From assembly GCF_029269265.1 (NCBI RefSeq), contig NZ_JARIXP010000004.1, forward strand, positions 372,001 through 436,000: 64,000 bases of DNA, given 5' to 3'. Each line of letters starts with the position of its first letter. Within the stretch, counting starts at the first letter, position 1. The notes under the pieces were generated by a model that was given only the letters and a program-made list of their open reading frames with translations, was not told the origin of the DNA and ran no database searches. This stretch comes from Rheinheimera sp. 1928-s. Lineage in GTDB: Bacteria; Pseudomonadota; Gammaproteobacteria; Enterobacterales; Alteromonadaceae. Shown piece by piece: positions 25,246 through 54,938 of this stretch. The position numbers and the translations under genes were made by a program.

Positions 25246-26043
25246 TTAAGCTAACAGCTTTAAGGCTTGTTGTTCAGAAACACGGCCCTGGCTAATCACA
25301 GAAATAGAAGCTTGTTCACGAACACCGGCTGCCACTTGTTCTGTGACCGCTTTGGCATAATCCAGGTCCTGAATACGGCTGATGGCTTCCTGCTCGTTTA
25401 CATTCTGCGTTTGCAGATTACGGGCTGTCGACTGCAAAGCATTAATAGTAGCGCCTAAATCAGTTCTGTTGTTGTCCACTAGCTGTGAAGAACTCTGAAT
25501 AGACTTCAGCGACGCTTCTGCACTTTCAGCAGAAGACAAATCAATACTAAAAGCACCTGAGTCAGTTAACTTAGTGGATAAATCCTGAGTTTTAATACTG
25601 ATACTGCCATTGCCTGTTCCTACAGGAATAGATCCATCCTGATCAAATAATTTGATGCCAGCAAATTCGGTATTTTTAATTTGGTCCTGAATACTGGCGG
25701 AGTAAGCATCAGCTTGTTTTTGCAAGGCCTGACGGTCTGAAGCAGTTAAAATGCCATTACCAGCCTGCACAGCTAAACGGCCCATTTCATTCAGATTATC
25801 TGTCACGCCCTGCAAGCCTTGATCGGCCACAGTAGCTAAAGAGATACCATCGTATACATTCTGTGTGCCCTGTGCAGAAGCATTGGCACTCTGAGTTAAA
25901 CGGTTGGCAATTTGTAATCCGGCGGCATCATCTGCAGCACTGTTGATACGACGCGCTGTGGCTAATTTTTTCAGCAAATTTTCAGATTCATTTGAATTGA
26001 ATTTCAACTGGTTTTCATTGGCGAAAGAGCTACCGATTTTCAT
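25246..26043 (-). CDS. Divergent flagellin-like protein
   Basis: The 265-aa product has the flagellin N-terminal core ([20 protein letters not shown], about residues 31-50; DGISLATVADQGLQGVTDNL) and the C-terminal core (TARNLQTQNVNEQEAISRIQ ... ISVISQGRVSEQQALKLLA). It lacks the usual NTNVSALNAQ opening, starting MKIGSSFANENQ instead, and differs strongly from the three flagellins at the other end of the window. It may be a minor or specialised filament subunit. No sigma28 site with correct spacing was found upstream. It is a real gene by length and family core; the role is unknown. Confidence 0.85.
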   Translation of the reverse strand: MKIGSSFANENQLKFNSNESENLLKKLATARRINSAADDAAGLQIANRLTQSANASAQGTQNVYDGISLATVADQGLQGVTDNLNEMGRLAVQAGNGILTASDRQALQKQADAYSASIQDQIKNTEFAGIKLFDQDGSIPVGTGNGSISIKTQDLSTKLTDSGAFSIDLSSAESAEASLKSIQSSSQLVDNNRTDLGATINALQSTARNLQTQNVNEQEAISRIQDLDYAKAVTEQVAAGVREQASISVISQGRVSEQQALKLLA

Positions 26044-26357
26044 ACTACTACCTCAGGCTATTCCGAAACGGATTGGCTATGAAAGGAGTCTACCTCAAAA
26101 TGAGCTGCCTGCCCAAGCTTTAAACTGTGCTTTTTTTAGACAATAAAGCTATAACCAGATGATTCTAAGCTAAGCACCTATTTAAAAAGGATTTTTTAAT
26201 AGTGGAATAAATTATGCTAAGGTTTGTTACAGTGGGTATAGATCCAATATGACTGTCAGTTTTAAGACGACCAGAGCACATTGTGAAACACCACAAGTGT
26301 GGGTCACAAAGTTCTTACTTGCAGCAGACAGAACAATTACAACAAACTGGGGCGAAC
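26044..26357. other. 314-nt divergent intergenic region
   Basis: This A/T-rich stretch separates the flagellin-like gene (minus) from pseC (plus) and must hold both promoters. I found no TAAAG-N-GCCGATAA or GG-N10-GC site in the right orientation. A weak sigma70-like pair for pseC (TTGTTA near 26224, TATGAC near 26248, 18-nt spacing) is possible. Nothing else was recognised. Confidence 0.4.
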
Positions 26358-27506
26358 ATGATTCTTTACGGTAAACAATGTATAAGTGATGCCGATATCA
26401 ACGCTGTAGTTGACGTCCTTAAAAATAATAACCTGACACAGGGGCCTAAAATCAAAGAGTTTGAGAAGGCCATTAGCGAATATACCGATTGTAAGTTTGC
26501 TGTTGCCGTTAACAGCGCGACTTCCGCTTTGCATATCGCAAACTTAGCCTTAGGCGTTGGCCCAGGAGATCTGGTCTGGACATCCCCAATAACATTCGTA
26601 GCTTCGGCAAATAGTGCTCTTTATTGTGGGGCATCGATTGACTTTGTTGATGTGGATATAACAACAGGAAATATGTGTACAGTGTCCTTAGCTGCGAAAC
26701 TGGCACAAGCAAAACAGAAAGGCAGACTCCCTAAAGTAGTCATACCTGTCCATCTGGCTGGCCATAGCTGTGATATGGAAGAAATTGATAAACTTGCAAA
26801 AATATACGGATTTCGAGTGATTGAGGATGCCTCTCATGCAATAGGAGGTAGTTTCAATCACAAAAAAATTGGAGCATGTGAATTCAGCGATATATGTGTA
26901 TTCAGTTTCCATCCTGTAAAAATAATAACTACAGCTGAGGGAGGATTGGCCACAACAAATGACCCTGAATTAGCTAACACTTTAATGATGTTGCGCAGTC
27001 ACGGTATAACAAAAGAACAAAATGAACTGGTGAGACTAGATGAGGGTGATTGGTATTATGAACAACATAGCCTCGGTTTCAACTATAGAATCACTGATTT
27101 ACAGGCTGCTCTGGGTCTAAGCCAACTGAAATCGATAGACAGCTTTACTGCCAGAAGAAACACCTTATCAGGTCAATACCGAAAATTACTTAAAGAACAA
27201 CCACTGGACATAGTTGAACCTTTACACGATTGTTTTAGTGCAAGACATCTGCAAATCATAAAGCTTCATGATGAATCAATTAGACGAAGTGTTTTTGATG
27301 CTATGAGAGCTAGAGGGATTCAGGTTCATGTCCACTATTTTCCTGTACATCTACAGCCTTTTTATACAAACCTTGGATTTAAGGAAGGTGATTTCCCCAA
27401 AGCTGAACTATTCTACAAAAAAATTCTTACGTTACCCCTTCATCCTCAACTTTCAGAAGATGAAATTGATTTTGTTTGTTCAAACCTCATTGAGCTTTTG
27501 CATTAA
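26358..27506 (+). CDS. pseC: PseC: UDP-4-keto-6-deoxy-AltNAc aminotransferase (pseudaminic acid)
   Basis: PseC is the PLP-dependent transaminase of the second pseudaminic acid step. From the ATG chosen (GGGGCG upstream) the protein is 382 aa and opens ILYGKQCISDADINAVVDVL, the family start; an in-frame GTG 75 nt upstream adds an unrelated tail. The SFHPVKIITTAEGG segment carries the PLP lysine. It is the first gene of the pse operon, directly followed by pseF. By hand count 9 of 13 Arg codons are AGA, unlike pseF and later genes, and it is visibly more A/T-rich, suggesting a different origin. No pseB precedes it. Confidence 0.92.
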   Translation: MILYGKQCISDADINAVVDVLKNNNLTQGPKIKEFEKAISEYTDCKFAVAVNSATSALHIANLALGVGPGDLVWTSPITFVASANSALYCGASIDFVDVDITTGNMCTVSLAAKLAQAKQKGRLPKVVIPVHLAGHSCDMEEIDKLAKIYGFRVIEDASHAIGGSFNHKKIGACEFSDICVFSFHPVKIITTAEGGLATTNDPELANTLMMLRSHGITKEQNELVRLDEGDWYYEQHSLGFNYRITDLQAALGLSQLKSIDSFTARRNTLSGQYRKLLKEQPLDIVEPLHDCFSARHLQIIKLHDESIRRSVFDAMRARGIQVHVHYFPVHLQPFYTNLGFKEGDFPKAELFYKKILTLPLHPQLSEDEIDFVCSNLIELLH

Positions 27507-28202
27507 GTGAAAATGGCCATTATTCCGGCACGCGGCGGCAGTAAACGAATTCCGCGTAAAAATATTAAAGACTTTAATGGTAAGTCGATGATTGGCTGGT
27601 CTATCGAAGCCGCATTGTTGTCCGGCGTTTTTGATGAAGTTTGGGTATCCACCGATGATGCAGAGATTGCAGCTGTGGCGCAAGGCTTTGGCGCCAAAGT
27701 GCCTTTTATCCGCCCTGCCGAATTATCAGATGATCACACAGGTACCTCAGCCGTAGTGCGTCATGCCATCAATTGGGCCCTGCAACACCAGTTAAAACCC
27801 GAATTCGTTGCCTGTATTTATGCCACTGCACCTTTGCTTCAAGCTGAGATGCTAAAAGAGGCCATGCTGCAATTGCAACAGGATGCGGCTTTGGATTATG
27901 TATTCTCAGGCTGTCGTTTTAGTTTTCCTATTCAGCGTGCTTTGTATCGCTCTGAGTCAGGCAAAGTCAGTGCTGTAGACCCATCTTCTATTCCTAAACG
28001 ATCACAGGACTTGCCTGAAACTTTTCATGATGCGGGTCAGTTTTATTGTGGTCGTGCTCAAAGCTGGCTGGATGCCAAACCAGTGTTTTCGCCAAGCTCT
28101 TATTTATATGAGCTGCCACAGCATTTGGTGCAGGATATAGATACAGTGGACGACTGGCTTCGCGCTGAGCTGTTGCATCAACTGCTTTTAAGACAGCCAT
28201 GA
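27507..28202 (+). CDS. pseF: PseF: CMP-pseudaminic acid synthetase
   Basis: PseF activates pseudaminic acid with CTP. The 231-aa protein has the NeuA-family nucleotide motif IPARGGSKRIPRKNIKDF, the VSTDDAEIAAVA segment and PFIRPAELSDD. Its GTG start abuts the pseC stop; an ATG two codons later is equally possible. It overlaps pseG by 4 nt (ATGA), so translation is probably coupled. Arg codons here are mainly CGN. Confidence 0.92.
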   Translation: MKMAIIPARGGSKRIPRKNIKDFNGKSMIGWSIEAALLSGVFDEVWVSTDDAEIAAVAQGFGAKVPFIRPAELSDDHTGTSAVVRHAINWALQHQLKPEFVACIYATAPLLQAEMLKEAMLQLQQDAALDYVFSGCRFSFPIQRALYRSESGKVSAVDPSSIPKRSQDLPETFHDAGQFYCGRAQSWLDAKPVFSPSSYLYELPQHLVQDIDTVDDWLRAELLHQLLLRQP

Positions 28203-29290
28203 CAGTCAGCAGAAAAGCGCTATTTCGGGTCGATGCCTCAGCCGTTATAGGTTCAGGTCATTTGATGCGTTGCCTGACCCTGGCCAAAGCAGTGCAGCAA
28301 TCAGGTTGGTCTGTTGTTTTTGCCTGTCGCGCTCATTCCGGCAATTTAATTCAGTGGCTGCGCGATCAAGGTTTAGACGTCCTTGAATTAACAGCTCCAG
28401 CGACAAATACCCAAGCAACAGACTATGCCGCCTGGCTTGGCGTAACAGAACAGCAAGATGCGGCAGAGCTTATTGGGCAACTGCAACAACCTGTCGATTT
28501 ATTAGTGATTGACCACTACGGCTTGTCCAAAACATTTGAACAGGCGATGACAAGTTTTTATCAAAAACTTCTGGTGATTGATGACTTAGCCAACAGGCCT
28601 CATCACTGCGATTATTTGCTGGATCAAAACCTCTACCCGCAGCTGCATAGCAGGTATGACTCACTGGTGAATAAAGAAGCCACACTGCTGTTAGGCCCTT
28701 CTTATGTGCTGCTACGTCCGGAATTTGCAACTTTTCAACGAACAGCAAAAGCCGATCAACTGCGCTTTTTAGTGTTTTACGGTGGCACAGACGAGCTGAA
28801 TTTAACCAGCAGGACGATAAAGGCGTTACAGCAACTTCAGAAAACTGACTTTCATGCCGATATAGTCATAGGCCTTGCCAATCCACACAGGATGGAACTT
28901 GAAAAACTCTGTGCTAAAGACAGCCGTTTCAATTTATATATCAATACGCCACAGATGGCAGAATTGATGAGTCAAGCCACTTTAATGATAGGTGCAGGTG
29001 GTTCCACCCATTGGGAACGCTGTGCCTTGGCTTTGCCTGCATTGGTGGTGACTTTGGCAGAAAACCAAGTCGCCAGCACTTTATCTTTAGTCGAAGCAGG
29101 CGTTTGTGGTTATCTGGGGCAAGGTCAGAATTTAACAGCATTGCAATTAACGGACGCTGTGCAGCAGTTGCTGGAAAATCCAGAGCAGTTGCAGTTGATG
29201 TCCGACAAAGCCAAACAACTGGTGCCGCAAGGCGGCGGTTGTGCTGCTATTGTAGATTTACTCAACACAGAATTTCAGGGTCGGCATTAA
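28199..29290 (+). CDS. pseG: PseG: UDP-6-deoxy-AltdiNAc hydrolase
   Basis: PseG removes UDP before the condensation step of pseudaminic acid synthesis. The 363-aa protein shows the GT-B-like fold with FRVDASAVIGSGHLMRCLTL (N-terminal GxGHxxR motif with the catalytic His), LLVIDHYGLS and the C-terminal MIGAGGSTHWERCALALPAL. The length is typical. It overlaps pseF by 4 nt. Confidence 0.93.
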   Translation: MTVSRKALFRVDASAVIGSGHLMRCLTLAKAVQQSGWSVVFACRAHSGNLIQWLRDQGLDVLELTAPATNTQATDYAAWLGVTEQQDAAELIGQLQQPVDLLVIDHYGLSKTFEQAMTSFYQKLLVIDDLANRPHHCDYLLDQNLYPQLHSRYDSLVNKEATLLLGPSYVLLRPEFATFQRTAKADQLRFLVFYGGTDELNLTSRTIKALQQLQKTDFHADIVIGLANPHRMELEKLCAKDSRFNLYINTPQMAELMSQATLMIGAGGSTHWERCALALPALVVTLAENQVASTLSLVEAGVCGYLGQGQNLTALQLTDAVQQLLENPEQLQLMSDKAKQLVPQGGGCAAIVDLLNTEFQGRH

Positions 29291-29318: not shown

Positions 29319-30380
29319 ATGAGCAAAGCACCTTTGGATATTCAGTTAGGCCAGCACTGGGTTGGACCTTCTCATCCGCCTTTAATTATTGCTGAGCTTT
29401 CCGGCAATCACGATCAATCGCTGGATAAAGCGCTGGCGATGATAGATGCAGCTGCAGCTGCCGGTGCGCAAGCCGTTAAATTACAAACCTATACCGCCGA
29501 CACCATGACGCTGGATATAGACACTGGCGAGTTTTATATCGAAGATAAAAACAGCCTCTGGCATGGCACCACTTTGTATAAGTTGTATCAGATTGCCTAT
29601 ACACCATGGGACTGGCATAAAGCCATTTTTGAGCGAGCCAAAAGCCACGGCATGCTGGCGTTCAGCACCCCTTTTGATTTAACTGCAGTGGATTTTTTAG
29701 AATCTTTGGATGTGCCTTGTTATAAAATTGCCTCTTTTGAAAATATTGATCATCCGCTATTGGCAGCGGTGGCGAAAACCGGCAAACCTGTAATTATGTC
29801 GACCGGCATGGCCAGTCAATCAGAACTGGCAGAATCTGTGGAAGTATTGCGCGCCAATGGCTGCAAAGAGCTGATTTTACTCAAATGCACCAGCAACTAC
29901 CCCGCCCGTCCTGTTGATGCGAATTTACTGACCATCCCGCATTTAGCGCAACTGTTTCAATGCCAGGCCGGTTTATCCGATCACACTACAGGTATTGGTG
30001 TCTCTGTGGCTGCTGTGGCTTTAGGCGCTACTGTGATTGAAAAACACTTTGTACTCGACAGAAGTGAAGGTGGCGTCGATGCTGAGTTTTCATTAGAGCC
30101 GAACGAGCTGAAACAGTTGGTGGAAGAAACAGCCAAAGCTAAAGTGGCTTTAGGTCAGGTCAATTATGGCTGCACTGAAAAAGAAATAGCTTCACGTAAA
30201 CACCGCCGCTCTTTGTATATTGCAGCTGATTTAAAAGTGGGTGATGTACTTACCACTGAAAACTTGCGCGCTATCCGGCCTGGTTTAGGCTTGCCTCCGA
30301 AATATCTGTCGATGCTTTTGGGCAAAGCAGTGACTAAAGACGTGGCACGTGGCACCGCCATGAGCTGGGATCTGGTGTAA
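29319..30380 (+). CDS. pseI: PseI: pseudaminic acid synthase
   Basis: PseI condenses the free 6-deoxy-AltdiNAc sugar with phosphoenolpyruvate. The 353-aa NeuB-family protein has the PseI-type phrase IIAELSGNHDQSLDKAL and the signature EKHFVLDRSEGGVDAEFSLE, which separates PseI from LegI/NeuB. A C-terminal SAF (antifreeze-like) domain runs from about residue 290. Its stop overlaps the start of the next gene by 1 nt. A second NeuB-family protein of the LegI type lies at 51528-52619. Confidence 0.94.
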   Translation: MSKAPLDIQLGQHWVGPSHPPLIIAELSGNHDQSLDKALAMIDAAAAAGAQAVKLQTYTADTMTLDIDTGEFYIEDKNSLWHGTTLYKLYQIAYTPWDWHKAIFERAKSHGMLAFSTPFDLTAVDFLESLDVPCYKIASFENIDHPLLAAVAKTGKPVIMSTGMASQSELAESVEVLRANGCKELILLKCTSNYPARPVDANLLTIPHLAQLFQCQAGLSDHTTGIGVSVAAVALGATVIEKHFVLDRSEGGVDAEFSLEPNELKQLVEETAKAKVALGQVNYGCTEKEIASRKHRRSLYIAADLKVGDVLTTENLRAIRPGLGLPPKYLSMLLGKAVTKDVARGTAMSWDLV

Positions 30381-30955
30381 TGCCGGACGCTCGCTTAACT
30401 ATGTGGCATACCGATGAAATAGCCGCCTTTAATGTGTTGCTTAAACCTTTGCAGCAGGATGATTTGGCACAGGTGCTTATATGGCGCAATAGCCCGGAAG
30501 TGAGCAGCCACATGCTGGATCAGAGTGAAATTAGCCCGGAGCGGCAACAAAGCTGGTTTGAACGTATATCTTCTGACCGACGCCAGATGCAGTTTGTGAT
30601 TTGTTATAAAAACCAGAAGGTTGGCGCCTGTAATTTAAAAAGCCCTACAGCTTTGGCTGTGGCAGAATGTGAAGCTGTTGAAACAGGCTTTTATTTAGGT
30701 GAAGCTAAGTACCGCGGCACTATACTGGCATTTTTTGCGGCCTTAGCGCTGAACCAGTATGCTTTTGAACAGCTTGGCATCAAGCTATTAAAGGCGCAGG
30801 TGAAAAGCACTAATAGCGCAGCCTTGCGTTTTAACGAACAATTAGGTTATCAAGCTGATGCACTGCAGTCTTCGAGTGAGATGGTGACCATGACTTTGGT
30901 GCAGCAAGCACACCAGGACGCCGCCGCTAAATTTGCAACTTTTATCCGGAATTAA
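30380..30955 (+). CDS. pseH: PseH-like GNAT N-acetyltransferase
   Basis: In the pathway PseH acetylates the 4-amino group of the PseC product. The 191-aa protein has the GNAT pattern typical of PseH (LIWRNSPEVSSHMLDQSEIS; GFYLGEAKYRGTILAFFAAL; NSAALRFNEQLGYQ). Position inside the pse operon supports PseH, although the downstream acyl-carrier genes raise the possibility that it transfers another acyl group. The gene symbol is by analogy. Confidence 0.8.
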   Translation: MPDARLTMWHTDEIAAFNVLLKPLQQDDLAQVLIWRNSPEVSSHMLDQSEISPERQQSWFERISSDRRQMQFVICYKNQKVGACNLKSPTALAVAECEAVETGFYLGEAKYRGTILAFFAALALNQYAFEQLGIKLLKAQVKSTNSAALRFNEQLGYQADALQSSSEMVTMTLVQQAHQDAAAKFATFIRN

Positions 30956-30956
30956 T

Positions 30957-31214
30957 ATGAGCAACGAACTAATTCAAACCAACTCAGCTAAATTAACTGT
31001 CGCTTTTGCCACAGCTTTAGTGGTTGCTGACACGCAAATCCATGATGATTTAGCCTACAACAGCATTAAAGAATGGGACTCAACGGCTCATATGCTGCTG
31101 ATTGCAGAGCTGGAAAACGTATTTAATGTCATGCTGGATACCGACGATATTATTGATATGAGTTCGGTCGCCAAAGCCAAAGAGATACTGAGTAAATACG
31201 GAGTGCAGTTCTAA
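30957..31214 (+). CDS. Acyl carrier protein
   Basis: The 85-aa product is a standalone carrier. Ser42 in KEWDSTAHMLLIAELEN matches the phosphopantetheine site (usual DSL, here DST), followed by the acidic helix (DTDDIIDMSSVAKAKEIL). The ATG lies 2 nt after the PseH-like stop and overlaps the reductase start. Its place between an acyltransferase and a ketoreductase/ligase pair suggests it presents an acyl group for sugar decoration, not bulk fatty acid synthesis. The acyl identity is unknown. Confidence 0.85.
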   Translation: MSNELIQTNSAKLTVAFATALVVADTQIHDDLAYNSIKEWDSTAHMLLIAELENVFNVMLDTDDIIDMSSVAKAKEILSKYGVQF

Positions 31215-31963
31215 TGAATGCGACTGCTGCGCCTGTTAGCCTTATTACAGGTGCCAGTCGTGGCATAGGCCGCGCAGTAGCCCTGCATCTTGCCAAAGCG
31301 GGCCATGAGCTGATTTTGGTGGCGCGTGATCTAACAGCTTTAGAACAAGTGCAGGCCGACTGTCAGGCTTTAGGGGCTTTGGTCTCTATTCATGCAATGG
31401 ATTTAACAGACCGTGACGCTGTAACTGCTTTATTTCGCCATTTGCACACAAAGTTGCAAGACAAAGGCCTAAGCCATCTGGTGCACTGTGCAGGCCAGAT
31501 GCAGGACTCATTACTGGCTATGACCCGTTTAGCGGATATGGATAAACTGCTGGCGCTGAATGTCGGCGCTACAGTGCAGCTCTGTCAGCTTGCCAGCAAA
31601 CTGATGCTGCGCCATAAAGCCGGTCACTTGCTGTTGTTATCGTCCAAAGTAGCAGAAGCAGGTTCTGCTGGTCAGGCTGTCTATGCCGCCACTAAAGGCG
31701 CTGTGTCTGCTTTGGTTAAATCGCTGGCAAAAGAATTAGGCCCAAACGGTATTCGTGTTAATGCGGTAGCGCCGGGTTTTATCGAAACTGATTTAACAGC
31801 CCATTACAGCGAAGAGAAAAAACAACAACTGACAGCACAAATCAGCTTACGCCGTTTAGGTCAGGCTGACGAAGTAGCGGCTGTGATCCAATTTTTATGC
31901 TCAAACGACGCCCGTTATATCACTGGCCATATTCTGGCGGTGGATGGTGGTTTTAGTTTATGA
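31214..31963 (+). CDS. SDR 3-oxoacyl-ACP reductase-like (FabG family)
   Basis: The 249-aa protein has the NAD(P) motif TGASRGIG (residues 12-19), a Ser followed by the YxxxK pair (VYAATKGA), NAG-like HCAGQM, and the FabG tail RVNAVAPGFIETDL. It probably reduces a 3-keto group on the acyl-ACP made by the neighbouring genes. It overlaps the ligase by 4 nt. Other SDR substrates cannot be excluded. Confidence 0.85.
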   Translation: MNATAAPVSLITGASRGIGRAVALHLAKAGHELILVARDLTALEQVQADCQALGALVSIHAMDLTDRDAVTALFRHLHTKLQDKGLSHLVHCAGQMQDSLLAMTRLADMDKLLALNVGATVQLCQLASKLMLRHKAGHLLLLSSKVAEAGSAGQAVYAATKGAVSALVKSLAKELGPNGIRVNAVAPGFIETDLTAHYSEEKKQQLTAQISLRRLGQADEVAAVIQFLCSNDARYITGHILAVDGGFSL

Positions 31964-33375
31964 AGGGCCTGAGTTTTGCTCACAGACTAGAGCTGTTTGG
32001 TGACGCCATAGCCCTGCGTTTACCTGATAACAGCACTATCAGTTACCTGCAGCTGGCAAAACTAGCTGATCAGTACAGCAGCACTTTAAACAAAGTTGTG
32101 CCGAAACACTCTTTGCTGGCTTTGCGCTTTAGTTCCACTTTATCTGCTGTAGTAGCTTATCTGGCGGCACTTCGTTGTGGCAAAGCGTTGTTATTACTGG
32201 CACCGGATTTGGCAGATAGACAAACTTTAGCTTTAATCGAGCGTTTACATATTGCGGCGGTGATCCGAAGTTCTGGTGAAATTCAGCTGAGCGCTTATCA
32301 ACACACCGCTTATAAACAAAAAGTGCGGCCCGATTGTGCTTTGTTACTCAGCACCTCAGGCAGTTCCGGCTCGCCCAAATCAGTGATGTTGTCCCTTCAG
32401 AATATCGAAGCCAATGCCCGCGCTATTTGTGACTATTTACCGATAGAGAGTACAGATACGGCCATTACGGCCTTACCGCTGCACTATTCCTATGGCTTGT
32501 CAGTGCTGAATAGTCATTTATGTCAAGGTGCATCCATCTTACTGACAGAAGCACCTTTAATGAGCAAAGAATTCTGGCAACAAACCAGAGACTTCAACAT
32601 AACCAGCTTACAAGGCGTGCCTTTTAGTTATCAGTTGTATCGCCAGCTGCGGCTGGAGCGTATGCCCCGCCCTGCGCTGCGTTATTTGACCCAGGCCGGA
32701 GGCAAACTCAATAGCAGCCTGACTGACTATGTGCAGCAATTATCAAGTACGCTGCAAAAGCCGGTTTATCTGATGTATGGCCAAACCGAAGCCACAGCCC
32801 GTATTGCTTATTTGCCGCCGAAACTCATTCAGCAGTATGCCGATTGTATTGGTAAGCCGATTCCCGGAGGCGAATTGCTGCTGCGGGATCCTATTACGAA
32901 ACACCTGATCACCGCAGACTTCACTGAAGGCGAGCTATGTTACCGTGGCCCTAATGTAATGTTAGGTTATGCCAGCTGTGCTGATGACTTAACCAGTACC
33001 GGCGTTTTAACTGAATTAAGCACAGGTGATTTAGCTGAGCGTCTGCCCAATGGCTTGTACCGTATTATCGGGCGCTTAAGCCGTTTTCTAAAAATTCAGG
33101 GCAAGCGACTGCAACTGGATCATCTGGAACAACAACTTTCAGTTTTAACAGACCCTGTCTGTTGCACTGGTAACGATGAGTTGTTAGTAGTCGCTTACAC
33201 ACAACAAGAACCAGCACTGACAGAACAAATACAACAGGTCTTACGCGAACAACTGCAACTGCATCCTGCTTTATACAAACTACTGCAATTGGATGCTTTG
33301 CCTGTGCTTTCCAACGGTAAAGCCGATTACCAGGCGTTATTGCAGCTTGCGAAGGAAAGTCATGATGCTGGTTGA
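31960..33375 (+). CDS. AMP-forming acyl ligase (ANL family)
   Basis: The 471-aa protein activates a carboxylic acid as acyl-AMP. Visible motifs are the A3 P-loop LLLSTSGSSGSPKSVMLS (about 124-141), A5 MYGQTEATARIAYLP, A7 ELSTGDLAERLPNGLY and the A8 hinge IIGRLSRFLKIQGKRL; a short C-terminal domain ends in ALPVLSNGKADYQAL with the catalytic Lys. It most likely loads the acid onto the ACP two genes upstream. Its 3' end overlaps the luxE-like start by 14 nt. Confidence 0.88.
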   Translation: MKGLSFAHRLELFGDAIALRLPDNSTISYLQLAKLADQYSSTLNKVVPKHSLLALRFSSTLSAVVAYLAALRCGKALLLLAPDLADRQTLALIERLHIAAVIRSSGEIQLSAYQHTAYKQKVRPDCALLLSTSGSSGSPKSVMLSLQNIEANARAICDYLPIESTDTAITALPLHYSYGLSVLNSHLCQGASILLTEAPLMSKEFWQQTRDFNITSLQGVPFSYQLYRQLRLERMPRPALRYLTQAGGKLNSSLTDYVQQLSSTLQKPVYLMYGQTEATARIAYLPPKLIQQYADCIGKPIPGGELLLRDPITKHLITADFTEGELCYRGPNVMLGYASCADDLTSTGVLTELSTGDLAERLPNGLYRIIGRLSRFLKIQGKRLQLDHLEQQLSVLTDPVCCTGNDELLVVAYTQQEPALTEQIQQVLREQLQLHPALYKLLQLDALPVLSNGKADYQALLQLAKESHDAG

Positions 33376-34441
33376 ACGAGAACCTTATAGCCTGAATGCG
33401 GCCGAAAAACAGCCTTTGCTGATGACGGAGCTCAACGAGCTGACGCAACATCATCAACAACAATGCCAGCCCTACCAGCAACTGCTGGAGGCTCAGTGGC
33501 CAGATGTATTGCAGAACCTATCAAATAGCACAGAACAACTACCTTATCTGGCGGTACGGCTATTTAAGCAGTTAAAACTGCAATCTGTGCCGGATGCAGA
33601 TGTCTTTAAAGTGCTGTATTCCAGCGGCACCACAGGCACACCGTCCCGTATTGTGCTCGACAGCGCAACTGCCGCCATGCAGTCAAAAGTTCTGGTGAAG
33701 ATCATGCAGCACTGGCTGGGTAAAGCCCGTTTGCCTATGCTGATTATTGACCACCCTGGCGTGATTAAAGATCGCAGCAATTTCTCTGCCCGTGGTGCCG
33801 GTATTCAGGGCTTATCTTTTATGGGGCGCAATCATTGTTATGCACTGAATGATGATATGAGTATTAACTTTGAAGCATTGGATCAGTTTTGCCAGCAGTT
33901 TGGCGATGGCCCTGTGTTTGTGTTTGGTTTTACTTTTATGGTCTGGCAGTTTTTTATTCAGCAATTAGAACAGCAGCAAAAAAGGATTTCTTTGCCACGG
34001 GCTCTGTTATTGCATAGCGGTGGCTGGAAAAAACTGCAGGACCAAGCCGTCGACAATGCCACCTTTAAACAGCAGGTACTGGCTCAAACCGGTATTAGCA
34101 AAGTGCATAACTTTTACGGCATGGTAGAACAAGTGGGCGCTATTTTTGTTGAATGTGAACAAGGCCATCTGCACTGCCCCAGTTACGCCGATGTATTGGT
34201 ACGCACACCAGGCAGCTGGCAAACAGCAGCTGTGGGAAAAGAAGGTGTATTGCAGTTAATATCTACCCTGCCACGCAGTTATCCGGGCCATAGCTTATTG
34301 TCAGAAGACCGCGCCGTGCTGTTAGGTGAAGATAACTGCCCTTGTGGCCGTATGGGCAAATATTTTCATATTTTAGGCCGCTTGCCGCAGGCTGAAGCCC
34401 GAGGCTGTAGTGATACTTTTTCGTCAGGAACAACTCCATGA
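33362..34441 (+). CDS. LuxE-type acyl-protein synthetase
   Basis: LuxE-family proteins activate an acid with ATP and carry it on a Cys for reduction by LuxC. From the ATG with AAGGAA upstream the product is 359 aa. It has LYSSGTTGTPSRIVLDS (AMP-binding loop), HNFYGMVEQVGAIF, and the conserved C-terminal ARGCSDTF with Cys349, the likely acyl-carrying residue. A longer in-frame opening runs back into the ligase gene and is not used. It overlaps the luxC-like gene by 4 nt. No luxA/luxB genes are present, so this is not a light-producing system. Confidence 0.87.
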   Translation: MMLVEREPYSLNAAEKQPLLMTELNELTQHHQQQCQPYQQLLEAQWPDVLQNLSNSTEQLPYLAVRLFKQLKLQSVPDADVFKVLYSSGTTGTPSRIVLDSATAAMQSKVLVKIMQHWLGKARLPMLIIDHPGVIKDRSNFSARGAGIQGLSFMGRNHCYALNDDMSINFEALDQFCQQFGDGPVFVFGFTFMVWQFFIQQLEQQQKRISLPRALLLHSGGWKKLQDQAVDNATFKQQVLAQTGISKVHNFYGMVEQVGAIFVECEQGHLHCPSYADVLVRTPGSWQTAAVGKEGVLQLISTLPRSYPGHSLLSEDRAVLLGEDNCPCGRMGKYFHILGRLPQAEARGCSDTFSSGTTP

Positions 34442-35613
34442 GCTGGACCATTTTAAACCCTGCAACGGCTAGAGCAGAACTGCAGCAACCTTTTGCTGAA
34501 CAAGATTTTGCTTATTGTCAGGCCTTGTCTGAAGCTTTATTAAAAGCTCCTCAAAGCAGGGATTTTCCGGATTTAATAGCATTGGGTTTCTGGTTACGCC
34601 AGGCTAATTTAAAGCCTCTGCTGGCGCCTTATCAGCAAGGCCAGTTTATACGTCAACCCTTAGGTTTGGTGTTTCATAGTGCGCCAGCTAATGTCGACAG
34701 CTTATTTGTGTACTCAGGTATTTTAAGCCTGCTCTGTGGTAATAAAAACGTCATTCGTTTATCCAGCCGAAGTGGCGGTAGCACAGCTGTATTAATAGAG
34801 AAAATTCGAGCTCTTGCAGAAACCTTCCCAATGCAAAACGCTCGTTTTCAACTGGTGCAATGCGACTACAACAGCGCTGAACTTAAAGCCTTGATTAGCA
34901 CTGTCGATGGCCGGGTATTATGGGGCTCCGATCAGGCTATACAAGCGCAGCGCCAGTTAGTAATGCCAGCTCACGCCCGCGAGCTGAGTTTTGGTCATAA
35001 GTTTTCCTTGTGTTTATTAGGCGCAGAGCAAGTGCTTTCTGCCGATGACACAGAGTTTAAACAGCTGAGCCAACTGTTTTATCGCGACCAACTGACTTTC
35101 GCCCAGCAAGGCTGTTCTTCCGCTAAAGCTGTAATCTGGTTAGGTGACGCAGCACAAGTGCAACAAGCGCAGCAGCGGTTTTGGCTGGCGTTAACTGAGC
35201 TTATAAAGCAAAAGCAACCTCTCAATAGCAGTGAGCAGTATCAGGCCTTAGCCACAGCGCAGCAGCTGATTATGAGCAGTGAACAACAGCTGATGCTGAC
35301 ACAGCAACAGAGCATTTCCCGTGTGGCAGTCCACACACTAGAGCCTGTGTTTATTCATCAGCATCAGGGTTGTGGTTTATTTTTGGAGCTACAACTTTCA
35401 AATCTTGCGCAGTTAAACCCTATGCTGACTCAAGCGCATCAGACCTTAACCCTCTGGGGTGTGGATCCAAGCTTGTTAAAAAACTGGCTGACAAGCGTGC
35501 ATACAGGTCTTGATCGGGTGGTGCCAGTAGGACAAGCATTAAGCTTTAGCCCGGATTGGGATGGTGTGAATTTAATAGAGCAGTTTAGCCGTAAGGTGGT
35601 GTGTTCTTTTTAA
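34438..35613 (+). CDS. LuxC-type acyl-CoA/acyl-protein reductase
   Basis: LuxC reduces an acyl thioester to an aldehyde with NADPH. The 391-aa protein is shorter than bioluminescence LuxC (about 480 aa) but retains FAQQGCSSAKAV with the catalytic Cys226, the nucleotide-binding part FHSAPANVDSLFVYSGILSL and VVPVGQALSF near the end. It is the last gene of the plus-strand operon. With LuxE upstream it should yield an aldehyde whose use here is unknown. Its TAA lies inside the TTAA that also serves as stop of the convergent gene. Confidence 0.85.
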   Translation: MSWTILNPATARAELQQPFAEQDFAYCQALSEALLKAPQSRDFPDLIALGFWLRQANLKPLLAPYQQGQFIRQPLGLVFHSAPANVDSLFVYSGILSLLCGNKNVIRLSSRSGGSTAVLIEKIRALAETFPMQNARFQLVQCDYNSAELKALISTVDGRVLWGSDQAIQAQRQLVMPAHARELSFGHKFSLCLLGAEQVLSADDTEFKQLSQLFYRDQLTFAQQGCSSAKAVIWLGDAAQVQQAQQRFWLALTELIKQKQPLNSSEQYQALATAQQLIMSSEQQLMLTQQQSISRVAVHTLEPVFIHQHQGCGLFLELQLSNLAQLNPMLTQAHQTLTLWGVDPSLLKNWLTSVHTGLDRVVPVGQALSFSPDWDGVNLIEQFSRKVVCSF

Positions 35614-37022
35614 GGCTGCTGTTTAAGTTGTTCTAAATAATCAATAAGCGCAGAACAAGCTTCAGTGTTTACCATACTGAACTTCTGCTGCAAGGCCTGC
35701 CTTTTTGAAGCAAAACGGTCTGACTCTAAATCCAACGCCATCTGTTCTAACATCTGAGCAAAATTCTCAGCCACACTACCGGCAATAAAATCTTCTTTGC
35801 CGATGGCAAACTGTCCCCGCACTTTAGCGTACTGATCAATGTCATACATAAAATGCAACACAGGTTTATTGCAAAGTAAAAAGTCAAAAGCCACAGACGA
35901 ATAATCAGTGATCAACAGATCTGCATCAGCCAGCCAGGGATAAACATTAAAACGCCCTGGATAATGGAAAATCCGGTCGCACCCTTCTTGCTGGCGCAGC
36001 TCATCAAAAGGCGCCAGAAAAGGATGAGTTTTCATCACAAAAACTGCGTTATGCCCAACAAGAAACTGCTGCAGTTCAGGCCAGTGGATTGGATGTTCAT
36101 TCTGGCCGTTGTCACGGTAAGTTGGCATATAAAGGATGAGTTTTTTACCAGCGCTTTGCCGTTGTAATTGTGACAGCGGCAAAGCGTTATGCCAGCAACG
36201 TTGTGGTGGTGCCTGCAGCAAGGCATCGTTACGTGGATACCCCAAATCCAGATAGTGTTTTGCTTTAAACATGCCGGGGAAAATCTGCTGATTAAACCAG
36301 CTGGAGCTGGAGACAAAAGCTTCATCCAGAATATGTGGAAAATGTTTATTGCCTGCCAAATGCTTAAAAGGTAAACCATGCCATAGCTGGACAACCTTAG
36401 CCTGAGTGCGGATGCGGTTAAATACAGTATCAGTTGACTCATGATCCAGCACCAATACCTTTGCTCTTTGCAATAACCAACGTACCTGCCAGGGTTTATC
36501 TATTTGCGCTGGATGAAAACCCCGCTGCGCATCTTTCACCACTAAATATACGTTCTGATGTAGCTTTTGGTGCTCATCAAAAGCCACTAATACGTTGCTA
36601 TCAACATATTTTTCGGCGTAGTAGACTACAGGGCCTTTGGGTAACAGATCCAGCAGTGAGGCAAGACTCTCGTTCATCAGGGTTTTGAGTTTTTTTAGTA
36701 TGGAGCCTGCTTTGTAAGGCTTAAACAGCAATGGACTCAGGCTTGTACAACACCATATTTTTTTTGCGACAAAGCCGTTTTTCAACATGCCTTCAGCTAT
36801 TTTCTGCTGGAAATCACTGATAGCAATCAATACAGCGTCATGGGGTTTGCTGTTAGAGACATGATTACAAACATCAGGCCCCTGCTTCAGGTTATCCACC
36901 ATACCAAGCACAGTAGCACCTTGCTGTTGCATTAATAGCGCAAGGTTCCTGCCGGCTGGATTATCCGGAGCTATATACAGGCGTTGCCCCTGCCAGTCTT
37001 TGACTTCACGTTGCATAGGCAT
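35610..37022 (-). CDS. TagB/TagF-like CDP-glycerol glycerophosphotransferase
   Basis: The family transfers glycerol phosphate (or related polyol phosphates) from CDP-glycerol. In this 470-aa protein the catalytic domain shows VVQLWHGLPFKHLAGNKHF, YMPTYRDN, MKTHPF and LLITDYSSVAFDFLLCNKPV, all typical of TagB/TagF. The first about 110 residues are a separate N-terminal domain. In a Gram-negative flagellar island it more likely decorates a glycan than makes teichoic acid. It is the last gene of the minus-strand operon, 39 nt after the TagD-like gene. Confidence 0.85.
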   Translation of the reverse strand: MPMQREVKDWQGQRLYIAPDNPAGRNLALLMQQQGATVLGMVDNLKQGPDVCNHVSNSKPHDAVLIAISDFQQKIAEGMLKNGFVAKKIWCCTSLSPLLFKPYKAGSILKKLKTLMNESLASLLDLLPKGPVVYYAEKYVDSNVLVAFDEHQKLHQNVYLVVKDAQRGFHPAQIDKPWQVRWLLQRAKVLVLDHESTDTVFNRIRTQAKVVQLWHGLPFKHLAGNKHFPHILDEAFVSSSSWFNQQIFPGMFKAKHYLDLGYPRNDALLQAPPQRCWHNALPLSQLQRQSAGKKLILYMPTYRDNGQNEHPIHWPELQQFLVGHNAVFVMKTHPFLAPFDELRQQEGCDRIFHYPGRFNVYPWLADADLLITDYSSVAFDFLLCNKPVLHFMYDIDQYAKVRGQFAIGKEDFIAGSVAENFAQMLEQMALDLESDRFASKRQALQQKFSMVNTEACSALIDYLEQLKQQP

Positions 37023-37061
37023 AAAACTCGTGATGAGCGAGAGCTTTGTTGGCAGGCATTG

Positions 37062-37478
37062 CTAATCCAAAAAGTCCCGTTTGAGTTGCATAAACACCTG
37101 AATAGCTTTTTTCAAATCCGTAGAAGATACATTGTCAGTGCGCGGCAAATACACCACCTCGCAATAGGGCTTTAAAAAATCAAACTTACCCTGCCAGTCT
37201 GACCCCATCACAAACACATCCACCTTGTGCTTTTGCACATCGCCGATTTTTTGCTCCCAGTTTGATTCGGCAATCACTTCATCAACAAAACGTACACTAC
37301 GCACCAGCTCCACTCTGTGTTCAAAGGGCATTAAAGTGGTCTTGCCTTTGGTCGCATTAAATTCGTCAGTAGAGACAGCTACAATCAGCTTATCACCCAA
37401 CTCGCGCGCCCGTTTCAATAAATTCAGATGACCTATATGGAACAGGTCAAAGGTGCCGTATGTGAGTACTGTTTTCAT
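37062..37478 (-). CDS. TagD-like glycerol-3-phosphate cytidylyltransferase
   Basis: The product (138 aa) would make CDP-glycerol from CTP and glycerol 3-phosphate. The HxGH motif is GTFDLFHIGHLNLLKRA and the second signature is RTDNVSSTDLKK (usual RTxGISTT). The ATG chosen has AAGGAG 4 nt upstream; an in-frame TTG 15 nt earlier does not. It sits next to the TagB/F-like enzyme that would use the product. A related polyol or ethanolamine phosphate substrate is possible. Confidence 0.85.
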   Translation of the reverse strand: MKTVLTYGTFDLFHIGHLNLLKRARELGDKLIVAVSTDEFNATKGKTTLMPFEHRVELVRSVRFVDEVIAESNWEQKIGDVQKHKVDVFVMGSDWQGKFDFLKPYCEVVYLPRTDNVSSTDLKKAIQVFMQLKRDFLD

Positions 37479-37496
37479 AACTCTCCTTAACAAAGG

Positions 37497-40553: not shown

Positions 40554-41089
40554 AAAAACGGACTCTCAAATTGATCCAGTGCAGGAAAACCTTGATCCCG
40601 CAGCGAAACGACAGGCTCAGTAACGGGCAACTCAAAGGGTAAGGAACGCCAGTGTATGCCCTGATCATGGTCTGGTGCATAAAGACTGTCAGTCTGATAC
40701 AGCATTAAAGTTTGAGCTGTAACAGCTAAAAAACCATGGGCTATGCCTACAGGCAGGTACAGCAGTTGAGGTTTAGCCGCAGATAACGCAACAGTACAGG
40801 TCTGGCCAAAAGTGGCTGAGCTCTTGCGTAAATCAACCAACAAATCCAATGCCTGACCAGCAGCACAATGAACCAGTTTTTGATGAGCAAAAGGTGGGGT
40901 CTGAAAATGCATACCTCTGAGCACATGCCGTTCAGACCAGGAGTAAAACTCTTCTTTGTGCTTGAAGTCGATGCCACTCTTAGCCAACTCAGCCTGATGA
41001 TAGGTTTTTACAAAGCGCCCTCTTTCGTCACTGGAATGCGGCAGATCAATTAGCTTGCAGCCCAACAGCGATAGTTCAGTCACATTCAT
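40550..41089 (-). CDS. RmlC-family epimerase, candidate CDP-3,6-dideoxyhexulose 5-epimerase (AscE-like)
   Basis: The 179-aa cupin has the RmlC signature LRGMHFQTPPFAHQKLVHC with the catalytic His, LDLLVDLRKSSATFGQ, PVGIAHGFLA and the late DHDQGIHW. It is normally a dTDP-4-dehydrorhamnose 3,5-epimerase, but no rmlA/B/D genes are here; after ddhC an AscE-type 5-epimerase acting on a CDP sugar is the natural reading. Its stop and start overlap its neighbours (4 and 1 nt). Confidence 0.7.
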   Translation of the reverse strand: MNVTELSLLGCKLIDLPHSSDERGRFVKTYHQAELAKSGIDFKHKEEFYSWSERHVLRGMHFQTPPFAHQKLVHCAAGQALDLLVDLRKSSATFGQTCTVALSAAKPQLLYLPVGIAHGFLAVTAQTLMLYQTDSLYAPDHDQGIHWRSLPFELPVTEPVVSLRDQGFPALDQFESPFL

Positions 41090-42411
41090 CAGTTTCTCGC
41101 TTCAAGTTGTCTGAAGAACTCATAAAACCTGCTGATCGTAAAGTCTAAGTGGTCACTGGTTAGTCCAGGATATAAGCCAATCCAAAAGGTATGCGACATA
41201 ATATGGTCAGTCACAGTCAACTCGCCGGCAACCCGGTAGTTCAGATTTTGAAAATACGGCTGTCGGGTCAAATTACCGGCAAACAATAGACGTGTACCAA
41301 TCTTTGCCTGATCCAAAAAATTAATAAGCTCAGCCCGGCTAAAGCCTTTATCGGTTTTAATGCTCACAGGATAACCAAACCAACTGGGGTCAGCGCCTGG
41401 TGTGGCCTGAGGTAAGACCAGATAGTCCTTTAAACCAGCTAACCCCTGCGTCAGATAGTTAAAGTTTTGCTTCCTTGAAGCAATAAAGCTCTCTAACCGA
41501 TCAAGCTGAGCCAAAGCACAGGCTGCTTGCATATCGGTAATTTTCAAGTTGTATCCCATGTGTGAGTAGGTGTATTTGTGATCATAGCCTTGCGGCAAGT
41601 CGCCAAACTGCTGATCAAAGCGTTTGCCACAGGTATTGTCTCGTCCGGGATCGCAATAACAGTCTCTTCCCCAATCACGAAATGACTCTATTATTTTCTT
41701 TAAACGCAATGATTTAGTGAACACGGCCCCACCTTCACCCATAGTGATGTGGTGCGCCGGATAAAAACTTAAGGTAGCGATATCACCAAAAGAACCCACC
41801 AGCTTGCCGTTGTAAGTGGTACCCAAGGCGTCACAACAATCTTCTATCAGCCATAAATCAAACTCATCAGCAAGGGCACGGATGGTGGTTAAATCAAAAG
41901 CATTTCCCAACGTATGAGCAATCATAATGGCTTTGGTTTTGTCACTGATCGCCTGCCGGACTAACTGGGCATTAATGTTTAATGTATGCAGGTCCACATC
42001 AACAAAAACAGGGATTAAGCCGTTTTGAACTATAGGATTGACTGTGGTCGGAAATCCTGCGGCGACGGTAATCACTTCATCACCCGGTTTTAGCCTGCGC
42101 TCCCCTAACTGTTCTGAGGTCAGCGCGGTTAGCGCCAGTAAATTAGCGGCCGAACCAGAAACAGTCGTCAATACATGTTTTACACCTAAAAAGGAACTTA
42201 ACCGGCGCTGAAACTCCTGATTAAACCGCCCTGTGGTTAACCAGGCATCCAATGAGGCGTCTACCATCAATTGTCGCTCTTTTGCACCTACGACTTTGCC
42301 CGAAGGTGGAACTGCGGTTTCGCCCGCAATAAAAAGTTTAGGGGCGTCTGCCAGAGCTGAATATTGAGCAACCAATTCAGCAATTTTTGTTCTGATGTCA
42401 TCCTGATTCAA
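41089..42411 (-). CDS. ddhC: DdhC/RfbH: CDP-4-dehydro-6-deoxyglucose 3-dehydrase
   Basis: This PMP- and [2Fe-2S]-dependent enzyme removes the C3 hydroxyl in 3,6-dideoxyhexose synthesis. The 440-aa protein has His in place of the PLP Lys ([18 protein letters not shown]), the hallmark of E1 dehydrases. The cluster ligands fit C-x57-C-x-C-x7-C (EDCCDALG, then [11 protein letters not shown]). No partner reductase (ddhD/E3) is seen in the window and must come from elsewhere. It overlaps ddhB by 4 nt. Confidence 0.94.
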
Positions 42412-43499
42412 GATGTAACTCCGGGTTCAGTTGTCAAAAGGGTCTGATAATTCTGAATTTCAGCCCAACAATAGTTATACATAGCTTCGCCTCTCAAAAA
42501 GGCGTGCTGCCACTGCACTATGCCTGACAAAGTGCTTTGAAGTGAGCAAAAAGTACGCCAGTTCAATTGCCTCCGTGCTTTTGTACTGTCCACACTCAAT
42601 AATGTAGTTTCATGACACTGCTGCGTCTCGGAGCGCCACCCACCCGAGCCCCAGGCCCTGATTAATTCTTCAACGACCCATTGCACAGGCTGGCTGGCGT
42701 GATCATCAGGACCAAAATTCCAGGCATCCGCATACCGAACCCCCTCTTTTACCAGATGCTCGGCTAACACCAAATAGCCGTGCAGAGGCTCAAGCACATA
42801 CTGCCACGGACGAGTTGCGGACGGATTACGCAGCACTATCTCTTGCCCATGTTGTAATGCAGTTAACACATCGGGAATTAAACGATCAGGCGCGTAGTCG
42901 CCGCCTCCAATCACATTTCCCGCGCGCACAGTGGCAATAGCACAGCGATGCGTTGCATAGTCGACCGCATTAAAAAATGAACTGCGAAATGATGCGGTAA
43001 CTAACTCAGCGCAGGCTTTGCTGCTGCTGTAGGGATCATAACCTCCTAAAGGATCGATCTCTCGATAGCCCCAGTGCCACTCTTTATTTTGATAAACCTT
43101 ATCTGTGGTCACCACCACCACTGCCCGCACAGAATCAACTTGTCGTATGGCCTGCAGCAGATTAGCGGTCCCCATCACATTCACCTGAAAGGTTTTGAGT
43201 GGGTCCAGATAGGATGCCCTAACCAAAGGCTCAGCCGCTAAATGAAAAACCACTTCTGGCTTCACTGCACAAACAAAAGATTGTAACGCCTGCAAGTCAC
43301 AGATATCGCCAATCTGGGAGTGCATGCCTCTGGCAACCTCAGCACTGGTAAATAACGCAGGTTCAGTTTGTGGGGCTAAAGCGTAGCCGTACACATCAGC
43401 CCCTAATTGCTGCAACCACAGAGACAGCCAGCTGCCTTTGAATCCGGTGTGGCCGGTCAGCAATACCCTTTTGCCAGCCCAAAATGAAGTATCAATCAT
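42408..43499 (-). CDS. ddhB: DdhB/RfbG: CDP-glucose 4,6-dehydratase
   Basis: The enzyme makes CDP-4-keto-6-deoxyglucose. The extended SDR has [35 protein letters not shown] with the catalytic Thr, and [13 protein letters not shown] (YxxxK variant with Tyr). The start chosen gives [12 protein letters not shown], the usual family opening (363 aa); an ATG 12 nt upstream overlaps the ddhA stop and has a GGAAG nearby, so it is also possible. Confidence 0.93.
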
Positions 43500-43501
43500 G
43501 G

Positions 43502-54930: not shown

Positions 54931-54938
54931 CAGGGCTT

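Follow-up and report, generated by a model that had tools for sequence, protein, structure and literature searches.

Several described gene clusters combine an acyl carrier protein (ACP), an AMP-forming ligase and LuxE- and LuxC-type proteins, and the papers reporting them are cited here from those passages that deal with these genes. Group II flagellar glycosylation islands of 98 Aeromonas strains carry pseH, ACP, 3-oxoacyl-ACP reductase, AMP-dependent synthetase, luxE and luxC genes, for which fatty aldehydes or a liposugar have been suggested (Forn-Cuni et al. 2021, PMC7874193). In flagellin glycosylation islands (FGIs) of Enterobacteriaceae the families Acp, CaiC, FabG, LuxE and LuxC were reported, LuxE in 73 strains, and the set was interpreted as making fatty acids and a liposugar (De Maayer and Cowan 2016, PMC4875605). 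In the third system, the rfbKLMN unit of Vibrio cholerae O1, 2,4-dihydroxybutanoic acid is described as being activated by RfbL for either coenzyme A (CoA) or the carrier RfbK (PMC12208996), tetronate synthesis has been linked to the LuxE domain of RfbN (PMC4772473), and 3-deoxy-L-glycero-tetronate acylates the amino group of perosamine (PMC3441752). In this study an operon joining such genes to those for pseudaminic acid (Pse) was analysed in a 64,000-nt stretch of DNA from Rheinheimera sp. 1928-s (contig NZ_JARIXP010000004.1, positions 372,001 to 436,000), referred to below as the window. A sequence-only reading of this stretch, made earlier by a model, had cited acyl-carrier and ketoreductase genes of some flagellin glycosylation islands as known parallels and was unaware that the gene set itself is already in print for Aeromonas and Enterobacteriaceae.

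The five genes behind pseH, encoding ACP, a FabG-like short-chain dehydrogenase/reductase (SDR), a ligase, LuxE and LuxC, are proposed with moderate confidence to be a portable, tetronate-like module for a short hydroxyacyl-ACP, served by a dedicated PseH subfamily. That the acyl group made would be dihydroxybutanoyl itself is put forward more tentatively. The proposal draws on the genes present, their homology to units of the RfbKLMN type, catalytic residues that are intact, an association with pse genes, inheritance together with a PseH subfamily, the loss of a GxG motif in that PseH and a match to a published mass. LuxE would activate one carboxyl group of a ready-made C4 hydroxy-dicarboxylate, malate being the likeliest, as the acyl-AMP and then transfer it to Cys349; LuxC would take the acyl group on Cys226 and, with NAD(P)H, reduce it to the semialdehyde; and the SDR would reduce this aldehyde to the alcohol, in RfbKLMN the job of an iron alcohol dehydrogenase. 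The ligase would then activate the remaining carboxyl and load the ACP, and PseH, without its usual CoA loop, would pass the acyl group on from ACP to the amine at position 4 of the UDP-sugar, later N-7 of pseudaminic acid. We infer the order of these steps, the substrate, the ACP as donor to PseH and the position on the sugar. Morona is said to have set out, in 1995, a pathway for rfbKLMN with malate as the source and a transferase of the hexapeptide type.

The operon comprises ten genes on the + strand (pseC, pseF, pseG, pseI, a PseH-like GNAT, ACP, SDR, ligase, LuxE and LuxC) and stands back to back with a flagellin gene:

26358 to 27506, + strand: PseC aminotransferase (TIGR03588, 529 bits, above cut-off)
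27507 to 28202, + strand: PseF (TIGR03584, 303 bits, above cut-off)
28199 to 29290, + strand: PseG (TIGR03590, 305 bits, above cut-off)
29319 to 30380, + strand: PseI, pseudaminic acid synthase (TIGR03586, 501 bits, above cut-off)
30380 to 30955, + strand: GNAT N-acyltransferase of the PseH subfamily, its CoA loop lacking GxG (PF13302, 62.8 bits, above cut-off)
30957 to 31214, + strand: stand-alone acyl carrier protein, ATG at 30957, Ser42 (PP-binding at E=0.068 only; serine motif present in relatives)
31214 to 31963, + strand: FabG-like SDR, proposed reductase of the distal aldehyde (PF13561, 192.1 bits; TGASRGIG at 12, YAATK at 157)
31960 to 33375, + strand: AMP-forming ligase, proposed hydroxyacid:ACP ligase (PF00501, 147.6 bits; TSGSSGSPK at 132)
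33362 to 34441, + strand: LuxE-type acyl-protein synthetase, Cys349 (PF04443, 153.0 bits, above cut-off)
34438 to 35613, + strand: LuxC-type acyl-protein thioester reductase, Cys226 (PF05893, 95.6 bits, above cut-off)
25246 to 26043, - strand: flagellin, divergent from the operon and the likely acceptor (Flagellin_N and Flagellin_C)

The six genes that the sequence-only reading had placed at 30380-35613 are all open frames in the order it gave, five of them above their Pfam cut-offs and the ACP below, and the key residues it named (ACP Ser42, LuxE Cys349 and LuxC Cys226) are right. The upstream genes it called pseC-F-G-I all exceed their NCBIfam cut-offs, but the absence of pseB went unremarked; a GNAT is present as claimed, but was not named as PseH. 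With the start codons chosen, overlaps of 1 nt (PseI/PseH and ACP/SDR), 4 nt (SDR/ligase and LuxE/LuxC) and 14 nt (ligase/LuxE) were seen much as described, PseH and ACP being separated by a 1-nt gap. Since the identical gene order recurs across many genomes, the set is not a chance assembly. Between the window and L040, a locus likewise without pseB, dN/dS was 0.03-0.19 for all ten operon genes, so the operon is probably in use; on the same values the idea of a decaying operon, suggested by the missing pseB, was rejected, as the operon looks maintained. A scan for promoters and terminators found sites no commoner than in shuffled sequence.

The order of the Aeromonas Group II islands (pseH, ACP, reductase-like gene, AMP ligase, luxE, luxC) is found in the window, where these five families likewise come after pseH in an island for flagellar Pse, and nine named Aeromonas loci with this order were recovered (L054, L058, L064, L066, L070, L072, L084, L086 and L113). 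As described, the Aeromonas islands differ in having pseBC apart from the rest and glycosyltransferases after luxC, whereas in the window pseC-F-G-I-H is contiguous with the module and pseB is missing. The Enterobacteriaceae FGIs, as published, resemble the window in having the same gene families in flagellin islands.

LuxE, LuxC and the carrier genes compared with tetronate units

Two genomes of the same order contain RfbKLMN-type units (L127 in G515, L128 in G752), in which an ACP, a ligase, a 374-residue gene and an 825-residue LuxE-LuxC protein stand in a row; in L128 the ACP, AMP-binding, iron alcohol dehydrogenase (Fe-ADH) and LuxE plus LuxC assignments were confirmed by Pfam. The V. cholerae O1 unit was likened to these by its described gene content. 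Homologues of all four kinds stand together in the window. Against L127 and L128 the ACP showed 40-42% identity over 55-57 aa (40-42 bits), the ligase 21-22% over 455-461 aa (79 bits), LuxE 34% over 368 residues (210-211 bits) and LuxC a score of 52 bits. The likeness to V. cholerae O1 rfbKLMN, as far as that unit is described in the passages cited, extends to ACP, AMP ligase, dehydrogenase, LuxE, LuxC and an adjoining acyltransferase gene, with an N-acylated amino sugar as the outcome; the differences are an Fe-ADH instead of an SDR, a single LuxE-LuxC protein where the window has two genes overlapping by 4 nt, and a perosamine O-antigen rather than flagellar Pse. In a literature search that was thin on subscription papers, no paper was found joining flagellar glycosylation islands with tetronate or pairing pseudaminic acid with dihydroxybutanoyl.

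By comparison, window LuxE matched the LuxE of a control lux operon (L130) at 22% identity and 58 bits, and two further lux-like LuxE proteins, L129 and L131, at 55 and 45 bits; of the three operons, that of L130 is the verified one. The genes of L130 follow the luxCDABEG order and were named by eye from their translations, LuxC and LuxE by Pfam. A LuxE tree of 118 rows separated the module and RfbN-type rows from two lux-like rows by a branch with a Shimodaira-Hasegawa-like approximate likelihood ratio test (SH-aLRT) value of 95; the RfbN-type rows have long branches and their exact placement within it is unsure. The nearest relatives of window LuxE among the named genome contigs scanned are from Rheinheimera. 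The catalytic cysteine is conserved in 117 of 117 LuxE and 112 of 112 LuxC alignment rows, the window included.

The published suggestion of fatty aldehydes or liposugars (PMC7874193, PMC4875605, in the passages cited) would have LuxE and LuxC reduce a long fatty acid, leaving the glycan with a lipid or a group derived from a fatty aldehyde. The family names fit this, and LuxE and LuxC have sequence and fold matches to the Photobacterium phosphoreum fatty acid reductase (7xc6), whose LuxC is the best Protein Data Bank (PDB) match of the window LuxC model. The likeness to that LuxC-LuxE system, which gives the best PDB matches, lies in the fold and the catalytic cysteines; the difference is that the window operon is without luciferase and its sequences are far from the lux type. 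Against the NCBIfam bioluminescence equivalogs, LuxE scored 53 bits where 550 are required and LuxC 28.7 where 750 are required, LuxE is nearer the RfbN type, and no ketosynthase is recognised by Pfam among the ten operon genes, an absence also counted in favour of the tetronate-like module. A fatty-aldehyde product is considered quite improbable. A role in bioluminescence itself was rejected, since LuxE and LuxC fall so far under the lux models, LuxE is nearer the RfbN type and, as the sequence-only reading had noted for luciferase, a Pfam search of the ten operon genes found no luciferase genes, luxAB or luxD.

The ACP had no Pfam match at E<=1e-3; its PP-binding score of 13.9 bits (E=0.068) is under the cut-off, which its homologue in L028 passes (26.7 vs 20.8 bits). 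All 110 ACPs collected with more than 50 bits to the window ACP carry the W[DNS]S motif. The SDR scored 223.1 bits against the FabG 3-oxoacyl-ACP reductase model TIGR01830 (cut-off 297.75) and 222 bits against YmfI (cut-off 238), reaching neither, and is present in 74 of 80 named loci. This last count bears on a further alternative, that the aldehyde is itself the decorating group, added by reductive amination or similar. LuxC does yield an aldehyde, but the SDR would reduce it, the ligase and ACP would be left without a role, and none of the ten operon genes was recognised as a dedicated imine reductase, which makes this very improbable. Of the two outcomes offered by the sequence-only reading, a pseudaminic acid with an unusual acyl group agrees with the evidence. 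A group added through an aldehyde is less likely, since the aldehyde makes better sense as an intermediate, which the SDR would turn into a hydroxyl.

Two loci bear on the ligase. In L034 (8838-11471) ligase and LuxE form a single 877-residue protein, a fusion which supports their acting in one pathway. In L025, from a genome of the same genus (G015), there is no ligase match between SDR and LuxE (7661-7786) although the rest of the module is kept; another ligase may stand in.

The PseH subfamily and the spread of the module

ACYLTRANSFERASE is part of the module. The window GNAT scored 83.6 bits against the PseH equivalog TIGR03585, under the cut-off of 93.1. Its AlphaFold model (pLDDT 94) nevertheless has Helicobacter pylori PseH (4ri1) as best Foldseek match (E 1.1e-12, TMt 0.81), in keeping with a PseH fold, and a profile of its relatives has Campylobacter jejuni PseH as best PDB match (69.8 bits; next 44.4). 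As a PseH homologue the GNAT belongs to the core pse pathway and is not an extra. It shares fold and place in the pathway with the H. pylori and C. jejuni enzymes (4ri1, 4xpk/4xpl), its best PDB matches; those were solved with acetyl-CoA, and where C. jejuni PseH has the CoA loop LKGVG, the window protein has YRGTILA, without GxG.

PseH was compared between module loci and 40 module-free PseI loci, the latter hand-picked from a score-ranked list and not a random draw. In these 40, neither LuxE nor LuxC is matched at E<=1e-3, and the ligase is matched once, at 16.5 bits; one of them, L203, comes from G515, which has its RfbN-type unit elsewhere in the genome. Module rows were taken at more than 55 bits to window PseH (78 found, of which 68 were kept once duplicates and short sequences had been dropped), and 34 module-free rows were found. 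The 68 and the 34 were split by one branch, a single change (SH-aLRT 96; 100/99 in the careful tree). The PseI control tree (66 module and 40 module-free rows) required 6 changes, at least 3 of them forced, so the PseH split does not simply reflect descent of the whole operon, and whole-operon inheritance as the sole cause of the PseH branch was rejected. As a post hoc observation, GxG occurs in 0/68 module and 21/34 module-free PseH proteins. We infer that module PseH takes its acyl group from ACP rather than CoA, and the window protein is proposed to be an acyl-ACP:UDP-4-amino-sugar N-acyltransferase.

Two module-free loci without GxG have surroundings of their own. In L194 (10301-13200) PseH is fused to a HAD-type domain (728 aa) beside a glyoxalase-like protein, possibly another acyl-donor system for pseudaminic acid. 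In L200 (5608-8566) PseH adjoins an ACP-like gene; another ACP gene, FabG-like genes and an AMP ligase lie nearby, but neither LuxE nor LuxC is present.

The spread of the module was followed in an order-wide sample of 394 genomes, 61 of which have a PF04443 match. Module-type LuxE, defined as more than 300 bits to window LuxE in the loci fetched (the weakest PF04443 matches, 20-31 bits, being left out), occurs in 39 of the 61. PseI above its curated cut-off lies within 10 kb of LuxE in 29 of these 39; in the other ten, PseF, PseG and PseH stand beside the module twice (G574 and G552), PseH stands at a contig end once (G427), and seven have none of these. Anywhere in the genome, PseI above cut-off was found in 38 of the 39 module genomes vs 101 of 355 others, counts in which related genomes are not independent. 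The survey of co-occurrence with pseI that the sequence-only reading had called for thus gave a distribution that is not random.

A scan of named contigs returned 413 relatives, and the best 80 of the 413 were analysed as loci, some ended by contig ends. By the thresholds of this report, 70 of the 80 have the complete five-gene module; PseI is present in 48 of the 70, 46 of which also have window-type PseH. Because the other 22 complete modules have no PseI in the locus, the module is not specific to pse. Nine of the 22 have a sugar aminotransferase, a NeuD-type transferase or RmlB. L028 and L029 each have the module behind a NeuD-type hexapeptide transferase, in a cluster with sugar aminotransferases and no pse genes (L029 also has rmlA and rmlB), and these pse-free modules beside amino-sugar genes were counted in favour of the proposal. 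Ten neighbour proteins at eight PseI-less loci were of mixed kinds. In a class-wide sample a LuxE match was found in 7 of 370 genomes, four of them strong, the window's own included, and in three of the four a PseI shares the contig. Taken together, the module forms a single unit whose link to pse is strong without being exclusive.

A plasmid search returned 34 records, three of which were inspected. On a plasmid of Deinococcus sp. NW-56, thus in another phylum, ACP-SDR-ligase-LuxE-LuxC and then an acetyltransferase lie in a polysaccharide cluster (L126, 5383-10771). A Rhizobium plasmid has acyltransferase-ACP-ligase-LuxE-LuxC, and a Salmonella plasmid has a LuxE-like gene that looks unrelated.

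The 376 Da sugar of Aeromonas and the acyl group

Aeromonas piscicola AH-3, which has the same genes behind pseH, is reported to carry a Pse derivative of 376.14 Da on its flagellin, with a further unknown moiety of 102 Da at the end of the glycan chain (PMC7874193, in the passages cited). By mass arithmetic a Pse residue with free amines is 232.106, and addition of acetyl and C4H6O3 (dihydroxybutanoyl; 102.032) gives 376.148, acetyl plus dihydroxybutanoyl being the 376.148 pair that gene content predicts. Acetyl plus octanoyl gives 400.221, and no tried combination with a listed fatty acyl on Pse came within 0.06 of 376.14 Da, a further point against the fatty-aldehyde product.

Another short hydroxyacyl group, such as 4-hydroxybutanoyl from succinate or 3-hydroxypropanoyl, could be made for the same PseH by identical enzymology, as sequence cannot tell the substrate, and FdhC (5ktc), a GNAT that adds 3-hydroxybutanoyl to a sugar, is among the fold matches of window PseH. 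The mass of Pse with acetyl and hydroxybutanoyl, 360.153, disagrees with the 376.14 of AH-3, though Rheinheimera could differ from Aeromonas. Such a substitute for dihydroxybutanoyl is judged unlikely.

It is likewise improbable, to about the same degree, that the target of the module is a different sugar in the flagellar glycan, for instance a terminal sugar or legionaminic acid, and not pseudaminic acid itself. The 102 Da end moiety of AH-3, equal in mass to C4H6O3, would suit this alternative, as would the position of the RfbKLMN-type units of L127 and L128 beside other nonulosonic-acid genes, the presence of LegB, LegC, NeuC and NeuB in the window's own island and the absence of pseB. Against it, PseH is both coupled to the module and inherited along with it, and in AH-3 the fgi-1 mutant is described as keeping the 376 Da residue when the rest of the chain is lost (PMC7874193).

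The tetronate-like module acting on pseudaminic acid would have wider consequences. Many nonulosonic acid derivatives of flagellin glycans are known as masses alone. If the proposal is true, a module that two surveys took as fatty acid or fatty-aldehyde synthesis would become a defined pathway to an amide-linked short hydroxyacyl group, an exact structure could be tested for the 376 Da sugar of Aeromonas, and loss of the PseH CoA loop would offer a sequence lead for predicting ACP-dependent N-acylation from genomes. A broader conjecture, possible but held with distinctly less confidence, is that the PseH subfamily switched donor from acetyl-CoA to acyl-ACP, possibly repeatedly, and that a mobile tetronate cassette, found with flagellar Pse, other amino sugars and O-antigens in several phyla, is the source of the Aeromonas 376 Da derivative and perhaps of the 102 Da end moiety.

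Points of doubt, the missing pseB and neighbouring genes

Several observations weigh against a tetronate-like module for Pse. The substrate and product that it names are predictions. LuxC discriminates poorly, scoring 52 bits against the RfbN type, 39 and 35 against the lux-like L130 and L131, and 69 against L171, another LuxE/LuxC pair. An SDR stands in the place of the iron alcohol dehydrogenase (RfbM). By the thresholds used, 13 of the 22 PseI-less modules are without an amino-sugar partner, although in one of these (L080) a hexapeptide transferase directly precedes the ACP. One of the three non-window module genomes in the class sample (G300) has no PseI match, and no PseB above cut-off was found anywhere in the source genome of the window. 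As for masses, four tried pairs give 376.148, the three besides acetyl plus dihydroxybutanoyl being formyl with di-O-methylglyceroyl, glycoloyl with hydroxybutanoyl, and two lactoyl or hydroxypropanoyl groups; nor does mass distinguish among 2,4-dihydroxybutanoyl, 3,4-dihydroxybutanoyl and O-methylglyceroyl. The deletion published for AH-3 is located past luxC and leaves the module genes intact (PMC7874193, in the passages cited).

The PseH evidence has exceptions of the same bearing. L062 (37 bits) and L068 (none found) fall outside the PseH selection, and adding L062 raises the tree to 2 changes. GxG is lacking in 13 of the 34 module-free proteins as well, and with the strict motif [QRK]xxGx[GA] the contrast is only 1/68 module vs 6/34 module-free. 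Five module-adjacent GNATs from Alphaproteobacteria, with weak matches (25-37 bits), form their own clade on the module-free side (99/93); treating them as module rows brings the PseH tree to two changes. None of the five has GxG, and they nest among rows that keep it (L174, L175, L179 and L208); their sister L194 and the nearby L177 are module-free yet also without GxG, so the loss in these five may not stem from the module. Repeated GxG loss as a clean sign of the module was weakened by this sharing with L194. Confidence in the proposal is lowered by the poor discrimination of LuxC and by this second loss shared with a module-free row.

The interval that separates the flagellin gene from pseC (26044-26358) contains no pseB, and no match in the genome passes the PseB cut-off, which leaves the pseudaminic acid pathway without a recognised PseB. 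The leader before pseC is common to the window and L036, which has pseB, after which the sequences diverge. The window PseC lineage is shared with L040 and distinct from the PseC of L036 and L037; near the pse operon of L040 lie NeuB-like and NeuD-like genes. The best PseB match in the genome, outside the window (G000:C19:341032-342003), is a FnlA-like dehydratase, with 686.7 bits to FnlA (cut-off 730) and 325.4 to PseB (cut-off 407.75). The first product of FnlA is the same 4-keto sugar, and the FnlA-like enzyme perhaps feeds the operon in place of PseB.

The gene after LuxC (35610-37022, opposite strand) is of the CDP-glycerol glycerophosphotransferase type; together with a glycerol-3-phosphate cytidylyltransferase above cut-off it forms a teichoic-acid-like pair (35610-37493, - strand) inside the flagellar island. 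Also within the island, at 41089-44278 (- strand), RfbH, CDP-glucose 4,6-dehydratase and glucose-1-phosphate cytidylyltransferase, all above cut-off, make up a set of the CDP-3,6-dideoxyhexose type. LegB, LegC, NeuC and NeuB, all above NCBIfam cut-offs, form a second nonulosonic acid set at 51528-55916 (- strand), which adjoins a Maf-type gene (55921-58752), with flagellins at 61481 and 62637.

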